From positions 2,046,001-2,110,000 of the forward strand of contig NZ_CP125655.1 of the NCBI RefSeq assembly GCF_030053835.1: a DNA stretch of 64,000 nucleotides. Reading direction: 5' to 3'. The notes under the pieces were generated by a model. It did no database searches and was not told the origin of the DNA. It saw nothing but the letters and a program-made list of their open reading frames with translations. The position numbers and the translations under genes were made by a program. This stretch comes from Cellulomonas sp. ES6. Its GTDB lineage: Bacteria; Actinomycetota; Actinomycetes; Actinomycetales; Cellulomonadaceae. This document shows positions 30,386-44,623 of this stretch, piece after piece (positions within the stretch are counted from its first letter, which is position 1; each line of letters starts with the position of its first letter).

Positions 30386-30600
30386 CCCCAGAACTCTAGA
30401 GGTGGCAGCCCACACGCCGGGACCCCGGCGAGGTCGGCTGGGGACGGCGCGAGCGCTTCTCCTCCGGCGGGGGCGCCCGGCGCGCGCGACTCCCCGCCCG
30501 GGGCCTCGGCGCGCGCGGGCCGCGGCGGCAGCGGACGGGGCGGTGCCGGCGCGGCCCGCGTCACGCGCGCGACACGGCGTCCCGCATGTCGGACGCGCCG

Positions 30601-30629
30601 TTCCATGCTGCGAGACGCGACGCTAGTTT
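30601..30629 (+). promoter_or_regulatory. Candidate promoter of the first metQ unit
   Basis: TTCCAT (30601-30606) and TAGTTT (30624-30629) are separated by 17 bases, in a stretch with visibly lower GC. Transcription from here would begin about 50 bases before the leader peptide ATG. Confidence 0.4.
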
Positions 30630-30685
30630 CACCGCGTCGCGGACCGCCCACGGTCCGCCCGGGCGCCCGAGGAGGAGGCAGCACG

Positions 30686-30772
30686 ATGCGCGAGCACGCC
30701 ACGACCACCTGCCGCCTCTCGATGTGCGCCGCCGCGCAGGCCGTCGCCTGTCGCTGTACCGCCACGGCCTGA
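30686..30772 (+). CDS. 28-residue Cys-rich leader peptide upstream of metQ1
   Basis: An ATG preceded at the ideal distance by GAGGAGGAGG (30670-30679) opens a 29-codon frame. The peptide starts MREHATTT and continues CRLSMCAAAQAVACRCTATA, with four Cys and an internal Met. It has no signal or domain features and ends 235 bases before metQ1. Cys-rich upstream ORFs that sense cysteinyl-tRNA levels are known in mycobacteria, and short sulfur-linked leader peptides are annotated in Streptomyces. By analogy this is an attenuator ORF for a sulfur amino-acid transporter. A second such ORF precedes metQ2, which supports the call. Confidence 0.65.
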   Translation: MREHATTTCRLSMCAAAQAVACRCTATA

Positions 30773-31007
30773 CGGCCCGCCGCACCGCGACCGCACGAGC
30801 CGCCGGCACGGCCCCGTCCCGCACGCGGACCCAGCGGCGGCGCCCCGTCGCCCGCCACGGCCCGCGGTGCGACCACCACCGCCCGCGCCCGACGCCCCGG
30901 GGCGGCGCCGCGCACCGCCGGCCCCCGGTCGCCGCACGACCCCCGAACCCCGCACCACCCCCGACCCGGCACGACCCCCGCCGGGCCTACGCGAGAGGCA
31001 CACCCCC
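30773..31007 (+). promoter_or_regulatory. C-rich untranslated stretch between leader 1 and metQ1
   Basis: 235 bases with no gene. The second half (30930-31007) is strongly C-rich and G-poor with runs of CCCC separated by ACGAC or CAC, which is what a Rho loading (rut) site looks like. No strong intrinsic terminator is visible. Stalling or completion of leader translation could decide Rho access (inference). GAGAGG before the metQ1 ATG is its ribosome site. Confidence 0.45.
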
Positions 31008-31919
31008 ATGAAGCGCAGACTGACCGCCTGGATCGCCGCGATCGCCGCCACCGCGTCGCTCGCCGCCTGCGCGTCCGGCGGCGGCGAGAGCTCGGCCGGG
31101 GCCAGCGCGACGGCCGACGCGGACAACCGCGTCACGGTCCGCGTCGGCGTCACCGACAAGGCCCAGGAGTACTGGACGACGTTCACGGACCTCGCCGCGG
31201 ACGAGGGCATCGACGTCGAGCTGGTGAACTTCACCGACTACACGCAGCCCAACCCGATCCTCAGCTCGGGCGACCTGGAGCTCAACCAGTTCCAGCACCT
31301 GCTGTACCTCGCCAACTACAACGTGAGCTCGGACGACGACCTGCAGCCCATCGGCTCGACGGCGATCTACCAGCTCGGGCTCTACACGACCAAGGGCTAC
31401 GCCTCCCCGGACGACATCCCGGACGGCGCCGAGATCGCGATCCCGAACGACGTGGTCAACCAGGCCCGTGCGCTGCTCGTGCTGCAGTCGGCCGGGCTGA
31501 TCTCCCTGACCGACGGGGGCAACGCGTTCTCCACGCCGGCCGAGATCGACGAGGCCGCGTCGACGGTCACGGTCGTCCCCGTCGACGCGAACCAGACCGC
31601 GGTCCAGCTGCAGAGCCTGGACGGCGCCGTCATCAACAACAACTTCGCGACGGACGCGGGCATCGACCCGACGACGGCGATCTACTCCGACCTGCAGGAC
31701 ACCGACACCGCCCGGCCGTACCTCAACATCTGGGTCGCCCGGGCGGAGGACGCCGACAACCCGGTGTACGCGCAGCTCATCGAGATCTACCACTCGCCCG
31801 AGGTCACCGACCAGCTGATCGAGGAGAACGGCGGCACCGCGGTGGTCGAGGACGTGCCGGCCGAGGAGCTCCGGTCCGACCTCGCGGACCTCGAGGACCT
31901 GGTCCGCGAGAACGCCTGA
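31008..31919 (+). CDS. metQ: Methionine ABC transporter substrate-binding lipoprotein (copy 1)
   Basis: A 303-residue NLPA/MetQ family lipoprotein. The signal peptide MKRRLTAWIAAIAATASLAA ends in the lipobox LAAC with the lipidated Cys at position 22. The mature domain has RVGVTDKAQEYWTTF, ELVNFTDYTQPNPIL and LNQFQHLLYLANYN, the D/E-rich MetQ core that binds D- or L-methionine. It is about 80 percent similar to copy 2 and probably arose by tandem duplication. It has its own leader and terminator, so it can be expressed apart from metN/metI. It would deliver substrate to the same MetNI. Confidence 0.9.
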   Translation: MKRRLTAWIAAIAATASLAACASGGGESSAGASATADADNRVTVRVGVTDKAQEYWTTFTDLAADEGIDVELVNFTDYTQPNPILSSGDLELNQFQHLLYLANYNVSSDDDLQPIGSTAIYQLGLYTTKGYASPDDIPDGAEIAIPNDVVNQARALLVLQSAGLISLTDGGNAFSTPAEIDEAASTVTVVPVDANQTAVQLQSLDGAVINNNFATDAGIDPTTAIYSDLQDTDTARPYLNIWVARAEDADNPVYAQLIEIYHSPEVTDQLIEENGGTAVVEDVPAEELRSDLADLEDLVRENA

Positions 31920-31932
31920 GCCCCGCGCCGAC

Positions 31933-31969
31933 GGACGGCGCCGGTCCCGCCCCGGGGCCGGCGCCGTCC
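31933..31969 (+). terminator. Terminator after metQ1
   Basis: A 12-bp perfect stem (GGACGGCGCCGG at 31933-31944, CCGGCGCCGTCC at 31958-31969) with a 13-base loop, 13 bases after the metQ1 stop. No T-tract. Confidence 0.72.
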
Positions 31970-32029
31970 GCGCGCGGGAGGGCGTGGCGACGCCGTGAGA
32001 CCGGCGGACGCGGCGCTCCGGGCAGGTGT

Positions 32030-32035
32030 TAGGGT
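32030..32035 (+). promoter_or_regulatory. Candidate -10 element of the metQ2-metN-metI unit
   Basis: TAGGGT (within GTGTTAGGGT) lies between the metQ1 terminator and leader 2, 38 bases before the leader start codon. No clear -35 is visible. Confidence 0.35.
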
Positions 32036-32072
32036 CGCCCGCGTCCGCCCCCCAGGGACAGGAGTCGAGCAC

Positions 32073-32171
32073 GTGAGCACCCACGCCGCTTCCGAGCGCC
32101 GCGCGCAGCAGATGCGCGCCATGGCCGGGGCGTCCTGCGGGCTCATGTGCTGTCGTCAGCGAATGTGCTGA
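32073..32171 (+). CDS. 32-residue Cys/Met-rich leader peptide upstream of metQ2
   Basis: A GTG with AGGAG 8 bases upstream (32060-32064) opens a 33-codon frame. Its second half is unusually rich in Met and Cys: QMRAMAGASCGLMCCRQRMC is immediately followed by the stop. Five of 32 residues are Met (counting the start) and four are Cys, the last codons before the stop being Met-Cys. It does not resemble leader 1 over its whole length, but shares position, size and Cys/Met content. It is best read as an attenuator ORF sensing charged Cys- or Met-tRNA for the methionine transporter (inference). Confidence 0.68.
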   Translation: MSTHAASERRAQQMRAMAGASCGLMCCRQRMC

Positions 32172-32435
32172 CGCTGCACCCTCGCAGCACGGCCCTCCCC
32201 CGGCGGACGTCCCGCCCGGCCCGACGCTCCTGACGAGCGGCCCGACCGGACGCCCCACCCCGGCCCTGACGCCGACGGCTCCGCGCCGCCCGGTACCGGA
32301 CCGCCGCCGGAGAGCCACACCCCCCGGCGCCGCGCACCCCCGCACGCCACCGCCCCGCGGACCCGGCCACCGGCCCGCACCGGGCTCGCCCCCGGGGCGG
32401 GTCCCCGCTCAGAACCACCGGAAGGCAGCACCACC
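32172..32435 (+). promoter_or_regulatory. C-rich untranslated stretch between leader 2 and metQ2
   Basis: 264 bases with no gene. Like the stretch after leader 1 it is C-rich and G-poor on the transcript strand (e.g. CCCTCCCCCGG, CCACCCCGGCC, CACACCCCCC). It could act as a Rho-dependent terminator exposed when the leader is not translated. GGAAGG before the metQ2 ATG is the ribosome site. Confidence 0.45.
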
Positions 32436-33335
32436 ATGAAGCGCAGACTGACCGCCGTCCTCGCCGCCCTCGCCGTGGGCGCGCTGGCCGCCTGCTCCGG
32501 CGGCGGGCCCGCCGCCGCCCCGACCGCCGCGGACCCGGACAACCGCGTGACCGTGCGGGTCGGCGTGACGGACGAGTCCAAGGCCTACTGGACGACGTTC
32601 ACCGAGCTCGCGGCCGAGGAGGGCATCGACGTCGAGCTGGTGAACTTCACGGACTACCAGCAGCCCAACCCGGTGCTCAGTGAGGGCCAGCTCGAGCTGA
32701 ACCAGTTCCAGCACCTGCTGTTCCTGGCGAACTACAACGTGAGCGCGGACGACGACCTGGCGCCCATCGGCGCGACGGTCATCTACCAGCTCGGCCTCTA
32801 CACGACGAAGGGCTACGCCTCGCCGGACGAGATCCCGGACGGCGGCGAGGTCGCCATCCCGAACGACCCGACCAACCAGGCGCGCGCGCTGCTGGTGCTC
32901 CAGTCGGCCGGTCTCATCACCCTGGAGGGCGGCGGCAACGCGCTGTCCACCCCGGCGGAGATCGACCAGGCCGCCTCCCGCGTGACGGTCGTCCCCGTCG
33001 ACGCCAACCAGACCGCGATCCAGCTGCAGGACCTGGACGCCGCGGTGGTCAACAACAACTTCGCCGCCGACGCGGGCATCGACCCGACCACGGCGATCTA
33101 CTCCGACCTCGAGGACACGGACACGGCCCGGCCCTACGTGAACGTCTGGGTCGCCCGGTCCGAGGACGCCGACAACCCGGTGTACGCGGAGCTCATCGAG
33201 ATCTACCACCGCGACGAGGTCATCGGCCAGCTCCTGGACGAGAACCAGGGCACCGCCGTCGAGCAGGACCTGAGCGCCGAGGAGCTGCAGACGAGCCTCG
33301 CGGAGCTCGAGGACCAGGTCCGCACCGCAGGCTGA
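32436..33335 (+). CDS. metQ: Methionine ABC transporter substrate-binding lipoprotein (copy 2)
   Basis: A 299-residue MetQ/NLPA lipoprotein with signal peptide MKRRLTAVLAALAVGALAA and lipobox LAAC (Cys20). The mature part (RVGVTDESKAYWTTF, ELVNFTDYQQPNPVL, LNQFQHLLFLANYN, VVPVDANQTAIQL) parallels copy 1 almost residue for residue. It is followed after 124 bases by metN and metI, so it is the transporter's operon-encoded binding protein. The two copies may differ in affinity or in response through their different leaders. Transport of methionine is the family expectation. Confidence 0.91.
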   Translation: MKRRLTAVLAALAVGALAACSGGGPAAAPTAADPDNRVTVRVGVTDESKAYWTTFTELAAEEGIDVELVNFTDYQQPNPVLSEGQLELNQFQHLLFLANYNVSADDDLAPIGATVIYQLGLYTTKGYASPDEIPDGGEVAIPNDPTNQARALLVLQSAGLITLEGGGNALSTPAEIDQAASRVTVVPVDANQTAIQLQDLDAAVVNNNFAADAGIDPTTAIYSDLEDTDTARPYVNVWVARSEDADNPVYAELIEIYHRDEVIGQLLDENQGTAVEQDLSAEELQTSLAELEDQVRTAG

Positions 33336-33459
33336 CGACCCGGCGCCGGGCGGCCCGCGGGTCGCCCGGCGCACGACCGCCCGCCGGCGCGACGCCGGCA
33401 CCCGAGACCCACACCCGCACCCGCACCCGCGGGCGACCCCACCCCAGGACGGTGACCCG

Positions 33460-34530
33460 ATGACCGCGATGGTCTCCCTGCGTGACGTCACGAAGGTGTT
33501 CGACGGGACCTCCGGTCCCGTCCGCGCCGTCGACGGCGTCACGCTCGACATCGAGCGCGGCGACGTGTTCGGCGTGATCGGCTCCTCCGGCGCGGGCAAG
33601 AGCACGCTCGTCCGGCTCGTCAACGCGCTCGAGACGCCGACCTCCGGGCAGGTGGTGGTCGACGGCACCGAGCTCACCGGGCTGTCCGAGCGCGGCCTGC
33701 GCCCCGCCCGCGCGGGGATCGGCTTCATCTTCCAGCAGTTCAACCTGCTGAAGTCCCGCACGGTCGCCGGCAACGTGGCGTACCCGCTGCGGGTCGCCCG
33801 GTGGCCCCGGGCCAAGCGCGAGGCGCGCGTGAAGGAGCTGCTGGAGTTCGTCGGGCTGTCCGACAAGGCCAAGCAGTACCCCGACCAGCTGTCCGGCGGG
33901 CAGAAGCAGCGCGTCGGCATCGCCCGGGCGCTCGCGACGTCGCCGGCCCTGCTGCTCGCGGACGAGGCGACCAGCGCCCTCGACCCCGAGACCACCAAGG
34001 ACGTGCTGGACCTGCTCCGCCGGGTCAACCGGGAGCTCGGCGTCACGATCGTCGTCATCACCCACGAGATGTCCGTCGTCTCGTACCTGTGCAACCGGGT
34101 CGCGGTGATGGAGCACGGCAAGGTCGTCGAGGAGGGCGACGTCTACCGCGTGTTCGCGGAGCCGACGCAGCCCATCACGCGGCGGTTCATCGGCGCCGCG
34201 CTGCACGACCGCCCGCGGCCCGACGTGGTCGCCCGGCTGCGCGAGCGGCACGCCGGCCGGATCGTCACGATCGCGATCCGGGAGAGCGAGGCGACCGCCG
34301 GCGTCGTCGTCACGGAGCGCCTGCGCGCCCACGGCATCAACGGGCACGTCGTGTTCGGCGGCATCACCGAGGTGAACTCCCGCCCGCTCGGCTCCCTGAC
34401 GTTCGCGCTCGAGGGCCCGGACGCCGCGGTCGACGCGTTCCTCGCCGACCTGCGCGCGCACACCGAGGTGATCGAGCACGCCCCGGACGGCGACCACGCC
34501 GGCCCCGCGAGCAAGGAGGTGGGCGCGTGA
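33460..34530 (+). CDS. metN: Methionine ABC transporter ATP-binding protein
   Basis: A 356-residue ATPase. Walker A is GSSGAGKSTLVRLVNALE, the signature LSGGQKQRVGIARALA and Walker B LLLADEATSALDPE. The C-terminal region (about residues 265-345, with RIVTIAIRESEATAGVVVTE) is the NIL/ACT-like domain that binds methionine and shuts transport down when the cell is replete. The upstream gap of 124 bases to metQ2 has no clear terminator. Its stop overlaps the metI GTG. The Q-N-I order differs from the N-I-Q order of E. coli but is common in actinobacteria. Confidence 0.94.
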   Translation: MTAMVSLRDVTKVFDGTSGPVRAVDGVTLDIERGDVFGVIGSSGAGKSTLVRLVNALETPTSGQVVVDGTELTGLSERGLRPARAGIGFIFQQFNLLKSRTVAGNVAYPLRVARWPRAKREARVKELLEFVGLSDKAKQYPDQLSGGQKQRVGIARALATSPALLLADEATSALDPETTKDVLDLLRRVNRELGVTIVVITHEMSVVSYLCNRVAVMEHGKVVEEGDVYRVFAEPTQPITRRFIGAALHDRPRPDVVARLRERHAGRIVTIAIRESEATAGVVVTERLRAHGINGHVVFGGITEVNSRPLGSLTFALEGPDAAVDAFLADLRAHTEVIEHAPDGDHAGPASKEVGA

Positions 34531-35192
34531 CCACGCCCAACGGCACGTCCCTGTGGCCGACTCTCTGGGCCGCCCTCGGCGAGACCCTCCAGATGGCGAT
34601 CGCGGCGCTGGCGATCGGCGGGCTCTGCGGCCTCGCCCTCGGCGTCGCGCTCTACGTCACGCGGCGCGGGAACATCCTGCAGAACCGCGCCGTGTTCACC
34701 GTGCTCAACATCGTGGTGAACATCATCCGGCCGATCCCGTTCATCATCTTCATCACGGCCGTCCGCCCGCTCACGATCGCCCTGACCGGCGCCTCGTACG
34801 GCGTCGAGGCGGCGATCCCCGCGCTGTCGATCATGGCGACGGTGGCGACCTCGCGCATCGTCGAGCAGAACCTCGTGGCGCTCGACCCGGGCGTGATCGA
34901 GGCGGCGCGCGCCATGGGCGCCGGACCGCTCCGGATCATCATGACGGTGATCGTCCCGGAGACGCTCGGCCCCCTGATCCTCGGGTTCACGTTCCTGTTC
35001 GTCGGGATCGTCGACATGACGGCGGTCGCCGGGGCGATCGGCGCCGGCGGGCTCGGCGACTTCGCGATCGTCTACGGGTACCAGCGGTTCAACGACGTCG
35101 CGACGTTGGCCGCCGTGGCCGTGATCGTCGTGATGGTCCAGCTGGCGCAGCTGCTGGGCAACACGCTGGCCCGCAAGATCCTGCGCCGCTGA
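34527..35192 (+). CDS. metI: Methionine ABC transporter permease
   Basis: A 221-residue permease with five membrane spans. The EAA loop that contacts MetN reads EAARAMGAGPLRIIMTVIVPE, and the motif VNIIRPIPFIIFI is typical of MetI. The GTG start overlaps the metN stop (GTGA) and has AAGGAGG 7 bases upstream. It forms the membrane pore of the methionine importer with MetN. A strong terminator follows at once. Confidence 0.94.
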   Translation: MTTPNGTSLWPTLWAALGETLQMAIAALAIGGLCGLALGVALYVTRRGNILQNRAVFTVLNIVVNIIRPIPFIIFITAVRPLTIALTGASYGVEAAIPALSIMATVATSRIVEQNLVALDPGVIEAARAMGAGPLRIIMTVIVPETLGPLILGFTFLFVGIVDMTAVAGAIGAGGLGDFAIVYGYQRFNDVATLAAVAVIVVMVQLAQLLGNTLARKILRR

Positions 35193-35466: not shown

Positions 35467-36921
35467 CTAGAGCTTCTTGCCCGGGTTGAGGATGCCGCGC
35501 GGGTCGAGGACCGCCTTGATCCCGCGCTGGATCGCCAGGACGCGCTCGCCGAGCTCGCCCGCCAAAGCGCCGCGCTTCTCGGTGCCGATCCCGTGCTCGC
35601 CCGTCACGGTGCCGCCGAGCTCGACCGCGAGACCCAGGATCCGCGCGTGGGCGTCCGCGGCCGCCGCGACCTGCGCCGGGTCGGCGGGGTCGAACGCGAT
35701 GACCGGGTGCAGGTTGCCGTCGCCGACGTGGCCGCCGGTGCCGATCGGCAGCCCCGACTGCGCGGAGATCTCGCCGAGCCGCTCCAGCAGCTCGGGCAGC
35801 CGGGTGCGCGGCACCGCGACGTCCTCGTTGATCGAGCCGCCGCGCACCGCCCGCATCGCCGGGTTGAACGCGCGCCGGGCGCGCATCAGGGCGTGCAGCC
35901 GCTCCTCGTCGTGCGCGACGTCGACCGTGACCGCGCCGTGCGCCCGGGCGATCGCCTCGTACGCCGCGACGTCCTCGGCGCCACCGAGCGCCTCGTCGGT
36001 GATGGCCAGCAGCATCGCCTCGGCGCCCGCGGGCAGACCGGCGTCCGGGTCGTACGCCACGAGGGACGCGAGCACGACGCCGTCCAGCAGCTCGAGCGTC
36101 GAGGGCCGGTGCGCGCTCGCGACGACGGCGTTCGCCGCGTCGAGCGCGTCGGCCACCGTGGCGAAGGTCGCGCACACCCCGCGGTCCGGGCCCGGGGCGG
36201 GCAGCAGCCCGAGCGTCGCCTCCGTGACGACCGCGAGCGTGCCCTCCGAGCCCACCACCAGGCCCGTGAGGTCCAGCCCGGCCACGGCCTTGACGGTCTC
36301 CGGCGACGTCCGGACGACCTCCCCGTCGGCGAGCACCACCTCCAGCGAGCGCACGAAGTCCCGGGTCACCCCGTACTTCACGCACCGCATCCCGCCCGCG
36401 TTCGTCGCGATGTTCCCGCCGATCGTGCTCTGCGCGTACGACGCCGGGTCCGGCGGGTAGAACAGCCCGCGCGCGGCCACCGCGTCGACCAGGTCCTTCG
36501 TGACGACGCCGGGCTGGACGACGGCGACCTGGTCGACCGGGTCGATCCGGCGGATCCGGGTCATGCGGGCCGTCGACAGCAGGATCGCGCCCGGGACGGC
36601 GTTGGCGCCGCCGGCCAGCCCGCTGAGCGCCCCCTGCGGCACGACCGGCACGCGATGGGCGTGCGCGGCGCGGAGCACGGCGGAGACCTCGGCGGTGGTC
36701 GACGGCTGCACCAGGGCGACCGGGTCGCCGGTGGGCGGGGTCGCCGAGCCGTCCTGCGCGCGGCCCCGCAGGGTGTCGGGGTGGGTGACCAGGGCCTCGG
36801 CGGGCAGCGCGGCGCGCAGGTCGGCGAGGACGGCCGCGAGCGCGGCGGCGTCCGGCGCGGGGACGGGGACCGGGGCCGGGCCGCCGGCGGCCGGGTCGAC
36901 GGGCGTGCGGGTCGCGGTCAC
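35467..36921 (-). CDS. FAD-linked D-2-hydroxyacid (D-lactate/glycolate) dehydrogenase
   Basis: A 484-residue GlcD/LDH-D type flavoenzyme. The FAD-binding region has PVVPQGALSGLAGGANAV and YAQSTIGGNIATNAGGMRC; the C-terminal FAD-oxidase domain carries GTGGHVGDGNLHPVIAFD and GTVTGEHGIGTEKRG. It should oxidise D-lactate, glycolate or a related acid and pass electrons to the respiratory chain. The GTG start overlaps the stop of the upstream FMN-dehydrogenase gene (GTGA). Paired D- and L-specific enzymes suggest use of racemic lactate. Substrate unproven. Confidence 0.87.
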   Translation of the reverse strand: MTATRTPVDPAAGGPAPVPVPAPDAAALAAVLADLRAALPAEALVTHPDTLRGRAQDGSATPPTGDPVALVQPSTTAEVSAVLRAAHAHRVPVVPQGALSGLAGGANAVPGAILLSTARMTRIRRIDPVDQVAVVQPGVVTKDLVDAVAARGLFYPPDPASYAQSTIGGNIATNAGGMRCVKYGVTRDFVRSLEVVLADGEVVRTSPETVKAVAGLDLTGLVVGSEGTLAVVTEATLGLLPAPGPDRGVCATFATVADALDAANAVVASAHRPSTLELLDGVVLASLVAYDPDAGLPAGAEAMLLAITDEALGGAEDVAAYEAIARAHGAVTVDVAHDEERLHALMRARRAFNPAMRAVRGGSINEDVAVPRTRLPELLERLGEISAQSGLPIGTGGHVGDGNLHPVIAFDPADPAQVAAAADAHARILGLAVELGGTVTGEHGIGTEKRGALAGELGERVLAIQRGIKAVLDPRGILNPGKKL

Positions 36922-38126
36922 GGCAGCCTCACGTGGTCGGGGGTGAGCTCGGCCAGCGACCGCACGCCGAGCAGGCGCAGGGTGCGGGCGATCTCGGTGG
37001 TCAGGATCGTGCCGACCCGGTCGACGCCGCGCTCGCCGCCCGCCATCAGGCCGTACAGGTAGGCGCGGCCGAGCATCACGGCCCGGGCGCCGAGCGCGAC
37101 CGCCGCGACGATGTCGGCGCCGTTCGAGAAGCCGGTGTCGACGTAGACCTCGGCGCGGTCGCCGAGCGCCTGCACGGTCTCCGGCACGAGGGTCAGCGGC
37201 ACGGGCGCGCGGTCGAGCTGCCGCCCGCCGTGGTTCGACAGCACGACGGCGTCCGCGCCGGCCCCCACGACGCGCTCCGCGTCGGCCACCGTCTGCACGC
37301 CCTTCACGACGAGCGGTCCGTCCCAGTGCTCGCGCACCCACGCCAGGTCGGCGAGCTCGACCGTCGGGTCGAACATGTGCGAGGCCAGCTCCTCGATCGT
37401 GCCCTGCCAGGAGTCGAGCGTCGCGAACCGCAGCGGCTCGGTGGTGAGGAAGTTCAGCCACCACGACGGGTGCAGCGCGCCGTCGACGACCGTCTTCACC
37501 GACAGCGCCGGCGGGATGCTGAAGCCGTTCCGGTTGTCCCGCAGCCGGGCTCCCCCGACCGGGACGTCCACGGTGATGACCAGCGCCTCGTAGCCGGCGG
37601 CCCTCGCCCGCTCCATCAGCTCGGTGGACGCGCCGCGGTCCTTCCACACGTACAGGCCGAACCAGTTCCGGCCGTCCGGCGCGGCGTCGGCGAGCTCCTC
37701 GATCGACGTCGTGCCCATGGTCGACAGCGTGTACGGGACCCCGGTGCGGGCCGCGGAGCGCGCGACGGCCCGCTCGCCCTCGTGCTGCATCATCCGCGTG
37801 AAGCCGGTGGGGGCGTACAGGAACGGCGCCTGCGCGGTGCGGCCCAGGACCGTGGTCGACAGGTCGACGTCGCCGACGTCCCGCAGCACCGACGGCCGGA
37901 ACTCCACGTCGCGCAGCACCCGCCGGGCGCGGCGCAGCGACACCTCGGCCTCCGCGGCGCCGTCCACGTAGTCGAAGACCGACCGCGGGGTGCGGGCCCG
38001 GGCGACCGTCCGCAGGTCCCGGACCGTGTACGCCCGGGACAGCCGGCGGGCCACCGGGTCCAGCTCCAGCGGACGCATCCGCAGCAGGGGTCTGAGCTCG
38101 GACCAGGTCTGCAGCCGTCGCCGCAC
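36918..38126 (-). CDS. lldD: FMN-dependent L-2-hydroxyacid (L-lactate) dehydrogenase
   Basis: A 402-residue (S)-2-hydroxyacid oxidase/dehydrogenase. The FMN motifs YAPTGFTRMMQHEGE and LYVWKDRG and the catalytic His region VVLSNHGGRQLDRAPVPL are clear; the C-terminal Arg-Gly phosphate site YVDTGFSNGADIV and AYLYGLMAGGERGV follow. Length and motifs fit LldD rather than isopentenyl isomerases. The GTG start has GAGGAGG 6 bases upstream and replaces several longer in-frame starts that would enter non-coding sequence. It is translationally coupled to the D-specific flavoenzyme. No permease or regulator is attached. Confidence 0.88.
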   Translation of the reverse strand: MRRRLQTWSELRPLLRMRPLELDPVARRLSRAYTVRDLRTVARARTPRSVFDYVDGAAEAEVSLRRARRVLRDVEFRPSVLRDVGDVDLSTTVLGRTAQAPFLYAPTGFTRMMQHEGERAVARSAARTGVPYTLSTMGTTSIEELADAAPDGRNWFGLYVWKDRGASTELMERARAAGYEALVITVDVPVGGARLRDNRNGFSIPPALSVKTVVDGALHPSWWLNFLTTEPLRFATLDSWQGTIEELASHMFDPTVELADLAWVREHWDGPLVVKGVQTVADAERVVGAGADAVVLSNHGGRQLDRAPVPLTLVPETVQALGDRAEVYVDTGFSNGADIVAAVALGARAVMLGRAYLYGLMAGGERGVDRVGTILTTEIARTLRLLGVRSLAELTPDHVRLP

Positions 38127-42706: not shown

Positions 42707-43608
42707 CGGGCACCGCCGGGCGCGGTCGACGGGGCGGACGGGGACGCGGACCCGGCAGGAGCGGACGGGGCGCCGGCGCGGGGTGCCTGCCGCACGTCGG
42801 CGACGACCCGGCCGTCCCGCACCTCCACCCGCCGGTCGCACCACGCGGCGACGCCGGCGTCGTGCGTCACCAGCACCAGCGACGCACCCGCGAGCCGGGT
42901 CGTCTCGGTCAGCACCCGCATGACGTCCTCGCCCGTCGCCTGGTCGAGCGCCCCGGTCGGCTCGTCCGCGAACACCACCTCCGGCCCGGTGATGAGCGCC
43001 CGCGCCACCGCCACGCGCTGCGCCTGCCCGCCCGACAGCTCGCCCGGCCGGCGCCCCTCCATGCCCGCCAGCCCCAGCGACCCGAGCCAGCGCACGGCGA
43101 GCGCCGTCGCCTCCTTGCGGGACGTGCCGAGCAGCATCGGGGCCAGCGCCACGTTCTCGACCGCCGGCAGCTCCGCGAGCAGCTGCCCGAACTGGAACAC
43201 GAACCCGTACTGGCGCCGCCGCACGAGCGAGCGCCCGCGCTCGTCGAGGTCGTGCAGCGTCCGGCCCGACAGCGCGACGCTGCCGGAGTCCGGCACGAGG
43301 ATGCCCGCCAGGCAGTGCAGCAGCGTCGACTTGCCCGACCCGGACGGCCCCATCACGGCGACGGACTCGCCCGGGGCGACGTCCAGGTCCACCCCGGCCA
43401 GCGCCGTCGTCGCGCCGAAGCGCTTGACCAGCCCCCGGGCGGACAGGCGCGGGGGCGCCGGCGGGGCGCCGTACGGGGCGGCCGCGGGTGGCGCCGCCGC
43501 GGTCGGTGCCGCAGCGGGCGGGGTTGCCGCGGTCGGTGCCGCAGCGGGCGGGGTTGCCGCGGGCGGGGCGGCCGGGGAGGGGACGGGGAAGGCGTGCGGC
43601 TCGGTCAT
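42703..43608 (-). CDS. ABC transporter ATP-binding protein (LolD/MacB type)
   Basis: A 301-residue ATPase. Walker A is GPSGSGKSTLLHCLAGIL, the signature LSGGQAQRVAVARALI and Walker B VVFADEPTGALDQ; the short D-loop and THDAGVAAW switch are LolD-like. The first 45 residues are a Pro/Ala/Thr repeat (PPAAAPTAAT units) encoded by a tandem DNA repeat at about 43480-43575. The ATG at 43608 is preferred over upstream starts that would translate repetitive sequence. It is coupled to the FtsX permease downstream. Confidence 0.85.
   Translation of the reverse strand: MTEPHAFPVPSPAAPPAATPPAAAPTAATPPAAAPTAAAPPAAAPYGAPPAPPRLSARGLVKRFGATTALAGVDLDVAPGESVAVMGPSGSGKSTLLHCLAGILVPDSGSVALSGRTLHDLDERGRSLVRRRQYGFVFQFGQLLAELPAVENVALAPMLLGTSRKEATALAVRWLGSLGLAGMEGRRPGELSGGQAQRVAVARALITGPEVVFADEPTGALDQATGEDVMRVLTETTRLAGASLVLVTHDAGVAAWCDRRVEVRDGRVVADVRQAPRAGAPSAPAGSASPSAPSTAPGGAR
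43480..43575. repeat. Tandem repeat in the N-terminus of the LolD-type ATPase
   Basis: Repeats of a roughly 30-base unit containing GCCGCGGTCGGTGCCGC and GGCGGGGTT. The unit is in frame and codes for Pro/Ala/Thr-rich sequence outside the ATPase fold. Confidence 0.65.
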
Positions 43609-43758
43609 GCCCCCAGCGTCGTCGCGGGCACCGGGCGGTCGCGTCGGCCCGCGGTCGCGTCCTGCGGGCGGGGCCGGTGCGACCGCGGTCGGAGGCGCCG
43701 CGCCGCGTCCGCCCGCAGTCGGAGGCCTCGTCATCCGCGCTGCCAACCCCGGGCGTGC

Positions 43759-43850
43759 AAGGACCCCCCGCACACCCGCCAGAGCTCACCTGCCCTTGCT
43801 GCCTTCCGGCCCTGGGGGGGTTCAGCGAGATGACGCCGCACGAGGGGTCT
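43759..43850 (-). ncRNA. ffs: Signal recognition particle RNA (small bacterial type)
   Basis: On the minus strand the sequence contains the SRP core CCAGGGCCGGAAGGCAGCAA, the GGAAG tetraloop/helix 8 region that binds Ffh. Flanking strands GACCCC and GGGGGGTCC close the terminal helix, giving about 92 bases. A TAGGCT -10 element lies at 43862-43857, about 7 bases before the inferred 5' end. Ends are accurate to a few bases only. Confidence 0.88.
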
Positions 43851-43876
43851 GCCCCCAGCCTAACGCAGCCGCGGGG

Positions 43877-44623
43877 TCACTCCGCGTCGAGCCGACGCAG
43901 GTAGCGCTCCGGTCCGGCGAGGAACCCCTGCCACGAGAGCACGAGGTCCGTCTCCTCCCACCGGGTCTCCCGCAGCCCCCACCCGCCGACCTCCCAGACC
44001 CGCGCCCCCGGCAGGGCCGCGAGCACCGGCGAGTGCGTCGACAGCACCACCTGAGCACCCCCGGCCACCAGCCGCCGCAGGTGCGCGAGCAGCGCCAGCG
44101 ACCCGGTGAACGACAGCGCCGACTCCGGCTCGTCCAGCACGTACAGCCCCCGCCCGCGCATGCGGTCCTCCGCGAGCGCCAGGAACGACTCCCCGTGGGA
44201 CATCTCGTGGAACGCCAGGTCCGCCGGCGACGGGTTGTCCTCCAGGTAGGTGAAGAACCCGTGCATCGTCTCGGCCCGCAGGAAGAACCCCCGCTTCGCG
44301 GCGCCCGCGCCGCGCTCCAGCACCAGGTGCCGCCACAGCGCCGACTCCGACGCGCGCGTCACGCCCCGCGCGCCTGTCGACCCGCCCTCCGCGCCCATCC
44401 CGAACGCCATCGCGAGCGCCTCGACCAGCGTCGACTTGCCCGCGCCGTTCTCCCCGACCAGCACGGTCGCGGCCCCCAGGTCCCACCCGTCCCGCAGGAC
44501 CTGCGCCACCGCGGGGACCCGGGCGAACCACGCCCCGGCGTCGACGGGCTCGCGCGCGTCCGCACGCACGCGTCGGACCGGCAGCGCGGGACCTGTCAGG
44601 GGCACGGGGACAGCCCACCACAC
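43877..44623 (-). CDS. Solitary AAA ATPase (ABC-type, RecF/SMC-like nucleotide fold)
   Basis: A 248-residue ATPase. Walker A is VLVGENGAGKSTLVEALAMA, the signature-like SHGESFLALAEDRM takes the ABC signature position and Walker B is GLYVLDEPESALSF, followed by STHSPVLAALPG. This is the AAA_23/AAA_21 type of stand-alone ABC ATPase seen in defence and repair systems. No partner nuclease or methylase is adjacent, so a defence role cannot be claimed. GTG start at 44623 without clear ribosome site; a GTG nine bases later is possible. It is divergent from tRNA-Ser. Confidence 0.75.
   Translation of the reverse strand: MWWAVPVPLTGPALPVRRVRADAREPVDAGAWFARVPAVAQVLRDGWDLGAATVLVGENGAGKSTLVEALAMAFGMGAEGGSTGARGVTRASESALWRHLVLERGAGAAKRGFFLRAETMHGFFTYLEDNPSPADLAFHEMSHGESFLALAEDRMRGRGLYVLDEPESALSFTGSLALLAHLRRLVAGGAQVVLSTHSPVLAALPGARVWEVGGWGLRETRWEETDLVLSWQGFLAGPERYLRRLDAE

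Follow-up and report, generated by a model that had tools for sequence, protein, structure and literature searches.

Why would two tandem metQ genes of a bacterium each be preceded by a separate short open reading frame (ORF) that ends in Cys and Met codons? The question is raised by a 64,000-nucleotide (nt) stretch of the Cellulomonas sp. ES6 genome (contig NZ_CP125655.1, positions 2,046,001 to 2,110,000; hereafter the window), in which leader 1 precedes metQ1 and leader 2 precedes metQ2. Our favored answer, which we consider probable if well short of certain, is that each metQ has its own attenuator that senses the charging of Cys- and Met-tRNA, most likely through Rho. The sequence itself holds, for each copy, an ORF with a ribosome site, a promoter-like box, terminal Cys or Met codons, rare codons, and a spacer with more C than G; the rho gene is also present. 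Features lie on the forward strand unless stated otherwise.

Leader 1 (30686..30772) has 28 codons and encodes the peptide MREHATTTCRLSMCAAAQAVACRCTATA, with four Cys and the end CRCTATA-stop. Its ribosome site, AGGAGGAGG (30670..30678), lies 7 nt from the start codon and is also found in three relatives (G009, G015, G028). A -10-like box, TAGTTT (30624..30629), is the sole TANNNT within 70 nt 5' of the ORF and begins 62 nt 5' of its start codon; among leader-1 loci, a TANNNT box is found at -61 to -64 in four, with TAGGTT or TAAGTT in three relatives. Leader 2 (32073..32171) has 32 codons, a GTG start, the peptide MSTHAASERRAQQMRAMAGASCGLMCCRQRMC, and the end GLMCCRQRMC-stop. Its ribosome site, AGGAG (32060..32064; 8 nt from the start), is surrounded by a conserved block, and its -10-like box, TAGGGT (32030..32035), again the sole TANNNT within 70 nt, begins 43 nt 5' of the start codon. 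A TANNNT is found at -43 to -46 in all 14 leader-2-type loci examined, the window's own locus counted in. The preliminary description of this DNA had given the coordinates, lengths, peptides, ribosome sites, and upstream boxes of both ORFs, the four Cys of leader 1, the GLMCCRQRMC-stop end of leader 2, and the lengths (235–264 bases) and C-rich, G-poor composition of the spacers that follow; all were correct on recheck. An attenuator leader would be a translated short ORF with a ribosome site and an upstream promoter; given their Shine-Dalgarno sites and TANNNT boxes at conserved places, both ORFs may be of this kind. Searches of NCBIfam returned no match at an expectation value (E) of up to 1 for the two leaders and the leaders of three relatives; Pfam gave none for leader 1 and, for leader 2, only a sub-cut-off match to DUF6381 (E 0.1, 12.8 bits).

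The occurrence of such ORFs was surveyed in 221 genomes of the family, 166 of which have a MetQ match at E up to 1e-30. We scanned 600 nt upstream of metQ at 89 loci from 21 genera (38 from the same genus and 51 selected from others, with five distant homologues, L026–L030, excluded) for ORFs of 15–60 codons whose last 16 residues include two or more Cys and four or more Cys plus Met. Leaders of this kind were found in 68 of the 89 regions, whereas the reverse strand gave 3 of 89 and dinucleotide shuffles a mean of 0.85; several of the 21 misses have weaker, similar ORFs (G090, G087, G095, G220). In the window, the tails of seven of 291 short-ORF stops satisfy the same definition, two of them being leaders 1 and 2, and only these two tails hold both Met and Cys. 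Counts so far above chance speak against the view that the leaders have no regulatory role and either arose by chance or serve only to aid translation through reinitiation. That view, to which we give almost no credence, can appeal to the commonness of short leader ORFs in Actinobacteria (PMC4833913), but the leader–metQ distances (135–497 nt) differ from the short distances, peaking at 10–11 bp, to which the reinitiation proposal of the same article applies.

The 68 tails vary between genera in sequence and in the positions and spacing of their residues, with Cys in 68/68 and Met in 66/68. Overall, Cys and Met make up 20% and 13% of tail residues, versus 0.6% and 1.3% in 19 predicted genes of the window; these leaders thus show the conserved pathway amino-acid codons near the stop that mark an attenuator. 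Codon choice is also skewed: TGT accounts for 94 of 218 Cys codons in the leaders versus 0/48 in window genes and 0/27 in 27 metQ genes (for comparison, of 256 TGY triplets counted in the spacers irrespective of frame, 55 are TGT). The Cys/Met enrichment and the rare TGT fit a sensor that works at the codon level. The motif ATGTGYTGYMG, a Met-Cys-Cys-Arg start, is found twice in this genome, one instance being in leader 2, and its reversed pattern 14 times.

A similar ORF is found before another gene. The PF01053 gene of this genome that we take to be metY-like is preceded by ATGTCCCGCCGAATGTGTCGCTGA (L113:1275-1298), a seven-codon ORF for MSRRMCR that is probably a third Cys/Met leader of this genome. 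Its core is found at 27 of 30 loci in the genus (18 MSRRMCR, 5 MTCRMCR, and 4 near variants; 7–8 codons); of the other three loci, two have less than 100 nt upstream and one has a start that could not be placed. In all 27, the ATG is only 6–7 nt away from an upstream TANNNT box, a distance suggestive of a leaderless message, and the nucleotides are near-invariant through the leader and ~25 nt past its stop. When 1.5 kb was scanned at 12 PF01053/PF00291 loci of this genome, a convincing leader was found only before the metY-like gene. An additional, unlike ORF lies far upstream of that gene. In leader tails of the genus, CGA makes up 15 of 71 Arg codons, versus 3/677 in metQ and metY-like genes. 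The conservation within the genus of the leader 2 tail and of the metY leader would also suit an arrest peptide, whose Arg-rich nascent chain (ending QRMC or RRMCR) would sense a metabolite such as S-adenosylmethionine in the ribosome. Against this stand the way Cys, Met, and Arg are arranged and spaced, which differs across genera, the mere 7–8 codons of the metY leader, and the rare-codon enrichment, which points to decoding; we judge an arrest peptide very unlikely.

Between each leader and its metQ lies RNA of unusual composition. Spacer 1 (30773..31007, 235 nt; C 55.3%, G 30.6%, skew -0.287) is the proposed Rho loading region of the first unit, and spacer 2 (32172..32435, 264 nt; C 53.0%, G 29.9%, skew -0.279) is similar. 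A skew of -0.27 or lower is found in 25 of 25,506 sliding 235-nt segments (64 kb, both strands, step 5). Across the family, all 68 spacers have more C than G (mean skew -0.250, under -0.15 in 66), as is typical of RNA between a Rho-dependent leader and its gene, whereas the 220 nt preceding each of these leaders have a mean of +0.018, with 2 of 68 under -0.15. YC dinucleotides are likewise more frequent in spacers (0.28) than upstream (0.18). The spacers before the metY-like genes have a skew of -0.224 and are negative at 27 of 27 loci, compared with -0.16 to +0.11 in ten other regions of this genome, 50–300 nt before a PF01053/PF00291 match. A simple consensus scan of 30400-33500 for intrinsic terminators (a G+C-rich hairpin followed by a U run) found none, and the region thus does not resemble a classical intrinsic-terminator attenuator. 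The window has three more C-rich, G-poor blocks, at 44276-44540 (+), 43396-43710 (-), and 36641-37005 (-), one of which adjoins the signal recognition particle (SRP) RNA on the minus strand.

The preliminary description took the two leaders to be different and looked to relatives for their conservation; both expectations hold. The genus set comprised 81 genomes. A MetQ match at E up to 1e-60 was found in 36, of which ten have two such matches side by side; in G001, of the same species, the locus is cut by a contig end. Leader 2 is kept before metQ2 in 10/10 tandem genomes in which that region can be read, and a related ORF precedes the single metQ of G049, G043, G037, and G063. Among the ten tandem genomes, all have Cys22 and Met31, and nine have each of Cys26, Cys27, and Cys32; codons 6, 23, 27, and 28 show silent changes. 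Leader 1 is readable in six genomes, contig ends having removed it from G068, G038, G041, and G035. The automatic criterion called it in 4/6, and alignment gives the same frame in 6/6, each ending TGT CGC TGT ACC ... GCC TGA (CRCT..A-stop) with both TGT codons invariant; in G058 and G077 the frame and stop survive indels. Leader 1 retains Cys only (CRC) in all six, versus Met-Cys-Cys plus Met-Cys for leader 2 in most of the ten, and the terminal Cys/Met codons and C-rich spacers are conserved for both. Since leader 1 of G058 begins GTG AGC ACC CAC GCC and resembles leader 2 in an alignment read by eye, the two leaders are taken to be paralogues. Another tandem metQ pair occurs outside the clade, at L225 (G218, genus g24; 55% and 48% identity to MetQ1), for which no Cys/Met leader was called.

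From these features we infer a mechanism in which the leaders are translated and report on tRNA charging. The ribosome would translate the short leader up to its last codons, which are Cys or Met and often accompanied by rare TGT and CGA. With charged Cys- and Met-tRNA, it would reach the stop and depart, so that Rho could get to the bare, C-rich spacer and terminate transcription before metQ. When charging is low, the ribosome would stall on the terminal Cys or Met codons and cover the hairpin-forming leader end; the leader-end RNA would then refold, or Rho loading would be blocked, and metQ would be transcribed. A ribosome that merely lags within a leader favors Rho, and therefore the gate would have to be a stalled ribosome that covers or refolds the leader-end RNA. 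Under this scheme, leader 1 would track mainly Cys and leader 2 both Met and Cys. The involvement of Rho, the direction of the response, and the differing specificities of the leaders are all predictions of the proposed scheme. The preliminary description had likewise supposed that leader translation gates Rho and that each metQ copy would follow its own mix of charged Cys- and Met-tRNA, although it did not set out how a stalled ribosome would do the gating.

Several observations weigh against this attenuator reading. In leader 2 of G035, Arg replaces three of the four tail Cys and a new Cys appears at codon 28 while the hairpin is retained; this leader is possibly a decaying sensor. G178 and G098, which are close to the tandem clade, have no Cys/Met leader even with a relaxed criterion. 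More C than G is also seen in the 21 upstream regions of metQ that are not among the 68 (mean -0.22; some have weaker leaders) and in the metQ2–metN gap (-0.21), and C>G may therefore be a common trait of untranslated RNA in these operons. Spacers fold slightly more stably than shuffles (mean z -0.94, n=67), so their structure is not unusually low. The leader end pairs with its own next 54 nt no better than with those of others (-34.8 vs -34.9). Finally, leader-end nucleotides are nearly invariant within the genus, and selection may act on the RNA rather than the peptide.

The last point would also suit a different view, in which evolution has kept an RNA element (leader-end hairpins, perhaps binding a protein or ligand) and the peptide is incidental. 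The end of leader 2 can form the hairpin GUCAGC-GAAUGU-GCUGAC (32155..32172), whose 3' arm holds the stop codon and in which 97% of cells are paired over 12 sequences. Directly 3' of the leader, a GCUGC / GCAGC(AC) stem (32173..32190; 92% and 86% of cells paired) may offer an alternative partner for the Met-Cys-stop stretch. Near-invariant nucleotides across the leader 2 stop, as well as those in and after the metY leader, would agree with such an element, as would the pairing retained in G035 while Cys was lost. In that genome (L008 / L234, C. triticagri) the leader 2 tail reads MRRCRRMR and the end hairpin is preserved via a G-U pair. On the other side, Cys/Met content persists between genera despite differing positions and peptides, the frame and stop of leader 1 survive indels, and Rfam gave no match at the leaders of the window and seven further loci. 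Covariation support is also absent: across the 12 sequences the pairing of the hairpin is consistent but shows no covariation, and the following stem has one double-sided (compensatory) cell, in the second pairing only. We consider it decidedly unlikely that the RNA is conserved for its own sake, although RNA pairing at the leader ends may matter as well, given the near-frozen nucleotides within the genus. These pairings are not taken as evidence for an RNA switch, and the equally good pairing of the leader end with the next 54 nt of other loci gives no sign of a specific local one.

The folding tests do not tell the Rho model apart from masking of the metQ Shine-Dalgarno sequence. In the latter case, a leader end would hide the metQ ribosome site unless a ribosome stalls, as in the translational attenuation named for M. 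smegmatis cysteine genes (PMC13236596), and the metQ2 start region, GGCAGCACC, does resemble the GCAGCAC lying opposite the leader end. The leader-end duplex with its own start region is, however, hardly different from swapped pairs (-22.3 vs -21.6, 21 loci), predicted ribosome-site openness rises in only three of nine loci once the leader end is covered, and spacers range in length between 135 and 497 nt. In addition, the longest Cys run in leaders 1 and 2 is two, and both have a Shine-Dalgarno sequence with a box 43–62 nt upstream, features that do not match the leaderless poly-Cys runs of the mycobacterial translational attenuator. Translational attenuation of the mycobacterial kind is in our view an unlikely explanation for these leaders.

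If attenuation through Rho is adopted, why are there two leaders? In a tree of 33 MetQ proteins, copy 1 forms one group (100/98) and copy 2 clusters with the single genes of G049, G059, G063, G043, and G037 (98/94); how copy 1 branches relative to G178/G095 cannot be read from this tree. The metQ duplication must therefore have preceded the separation of copy 2 from those single genes, and both leaders have persisted. The tandem arrangement also coincides with the absence of PF01507, the sulfate-reduction family, which has no match in this genome. A strong match is absent from 11 of 11 tandem-type genomes (G001 counted) versus 15 of 70 other genomes of the genus, some of which are incomplete (Fisher p 6e-7, kinship ignored). 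Weak PF01507 fragments only (E 1e-4 to 1e-7) were seen in G009 and G038, both tandem-type, and in G037 and G043. Cells unable to reduce sulfate would rely on imported Met and Cys. We offer tentatively, as a possibility that we hold to be clearly less probable than attenuation itself, that the duplicated metQ carried an attenuator with it and that the leaders drifted into a Cys-only sensor (metQ1) and a Met-plus-Cys sensor (metQ2), so that the transporter would swap binding proteins by whichever sulfur amino acid is scarce. Together with the metY leader, they would form a ribosome-sensed sulfur regulon, essential after the loss of sulfate reduction.

The transporter genes lie downstream. metQ1, a substrate-binding lipoprotein (31008..31919), matches PF03180 above cut-off (E 4.8e-63) and NF008285 below it (E 3e-37); metQ2 (32436..33335) matches PF03180 above cut-off (E 5e-62). 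They are followed by metN (33460..34530), an ATPase with a NIL domain (PF00005, PF09383; TIGR02314 sub-cut-off, E 7e-96), and the permease gene metI (34527..35192; PF00528; NF008049 sub-cut-off, E 7e-45), for which the GTGA overlap suggests a GTG start. A gene that we take to be dnaX-like lies upstream of leader 1 and metQ1 on the opposite strand. The closest named relatives of MetQ2 are from Cellulomonas spp., including C. hominis, C. pakistanensis, and C. triticagri; a Micrococcales metagenome-assembled genome and a record named Cellulosimicrobium cellulans DE0111 are further close relatives. Of seven loci searched, three (L079, L100, L101) have SRP RNA no more than 1 kb upstream of metQ. 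The SRP RNA of the window (43756-43852) is ~10 kb from metQ2.

Outside the family, many operons begin with metN. A class-wide survey of 30 loci scanned before metQ gave no convincing leader, and most of these have metN upstream. Before metN, 20 regions yielded a clear leader in 12 of 13 genomes of genus g48 and in L198, a weak one in L202, and none in six; 20 more regions, scanned before metQ only, gave five clear leaders, three unlike ORFs, and twelve without any. Two Cutibacterium loci (L241, L243) have MTAAFSHTVDADLRAASMMMCRPCCLRMLGTC before metQ. Because the ORF in 12 of 13 g48 genomes closely resembles the published metL of S. lividans, g48 is probably Streptomyces.

The metL leader peptide, MSTTSDRTPATEATTTPGARCMCRRMCAF, precedes metNIQ in Streptomyces lividans TK24 (PMC8079986) and is the nearest known counterpart. 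In both systems, a Cys/Met-rich leader precedes the first gene of an operon for a Met ATP-binding cassette transporter, a typical Rho-independent structure is likewise missing in that account, and the 12 Streptomyces-like genomes share the spacer type (metL–metN skew -0.240). They differ in that metL is a single leader before metN with a transcript reported as leaderless (PMC8079986), whereas here two leaders with Shine-Dalgarno sequences, one per tandem metQ, have diverged in Cys/Met content. The preliminary description had held that a pair of distinct leaders on duplicated binding proteins would be a new arrangement; a Cys/Met leader before a Met transporter is in itself already known from metL (PMC8079986). 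Beyond the papers named here, the literature surveyed, which left out most subscription journals, gave no metQ leader and no paired leader.

Leaders before cys operons of Mycobacterium spp. and P. acnes and before cbs of B. longum (PMC1262725) similarly have Cys codons near the stop and no terminator hairpin; they carry polypyrimidine motifs, and Rho was suggested there in what was termed a weak prediction. Those leaders have runs of Cys and control cysteine genes; upstream of methionine operons, the same article reports no conserved RNA structures. The article also names tnaC as a Rho model (PMC1262725). The logic proposed here shares with tnaC a ribosome held at the leader end that shields the following RNA from Rho. 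The tnaC product of E. coli is a Trp-induced arrest peptide, while the trigger proposed here is uncharged Cys- or Met-tRNA. Poly-Cys leaderless short ORFs of M. smegmatis (Canestrari 2020) reportedly sense for sulfur genes by ribosome stalling at Cys codons. They are said to act on downstream translation, whereas the Shine-Dalgarno masking test was unsupportive here. Relative to these systems, what is new is the family-wide conservation, the two paralogous, codon-diverged leaders on a duplicated metQ, their coincidence with missing PF01507, and the seven-codon MSRRMCR leader before a metY-like gene. Cys/Met leaders before Met transporters thus span several actinobacterial families and are not a Streptomyces oddity. 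Paralogous leaders on paralogous genes make a natural pair for side-by-side comparison of codon content, and the metY leader, at 7–8 codons, is a compact, conserved case for how actinobacterial leaders without terminators operate.

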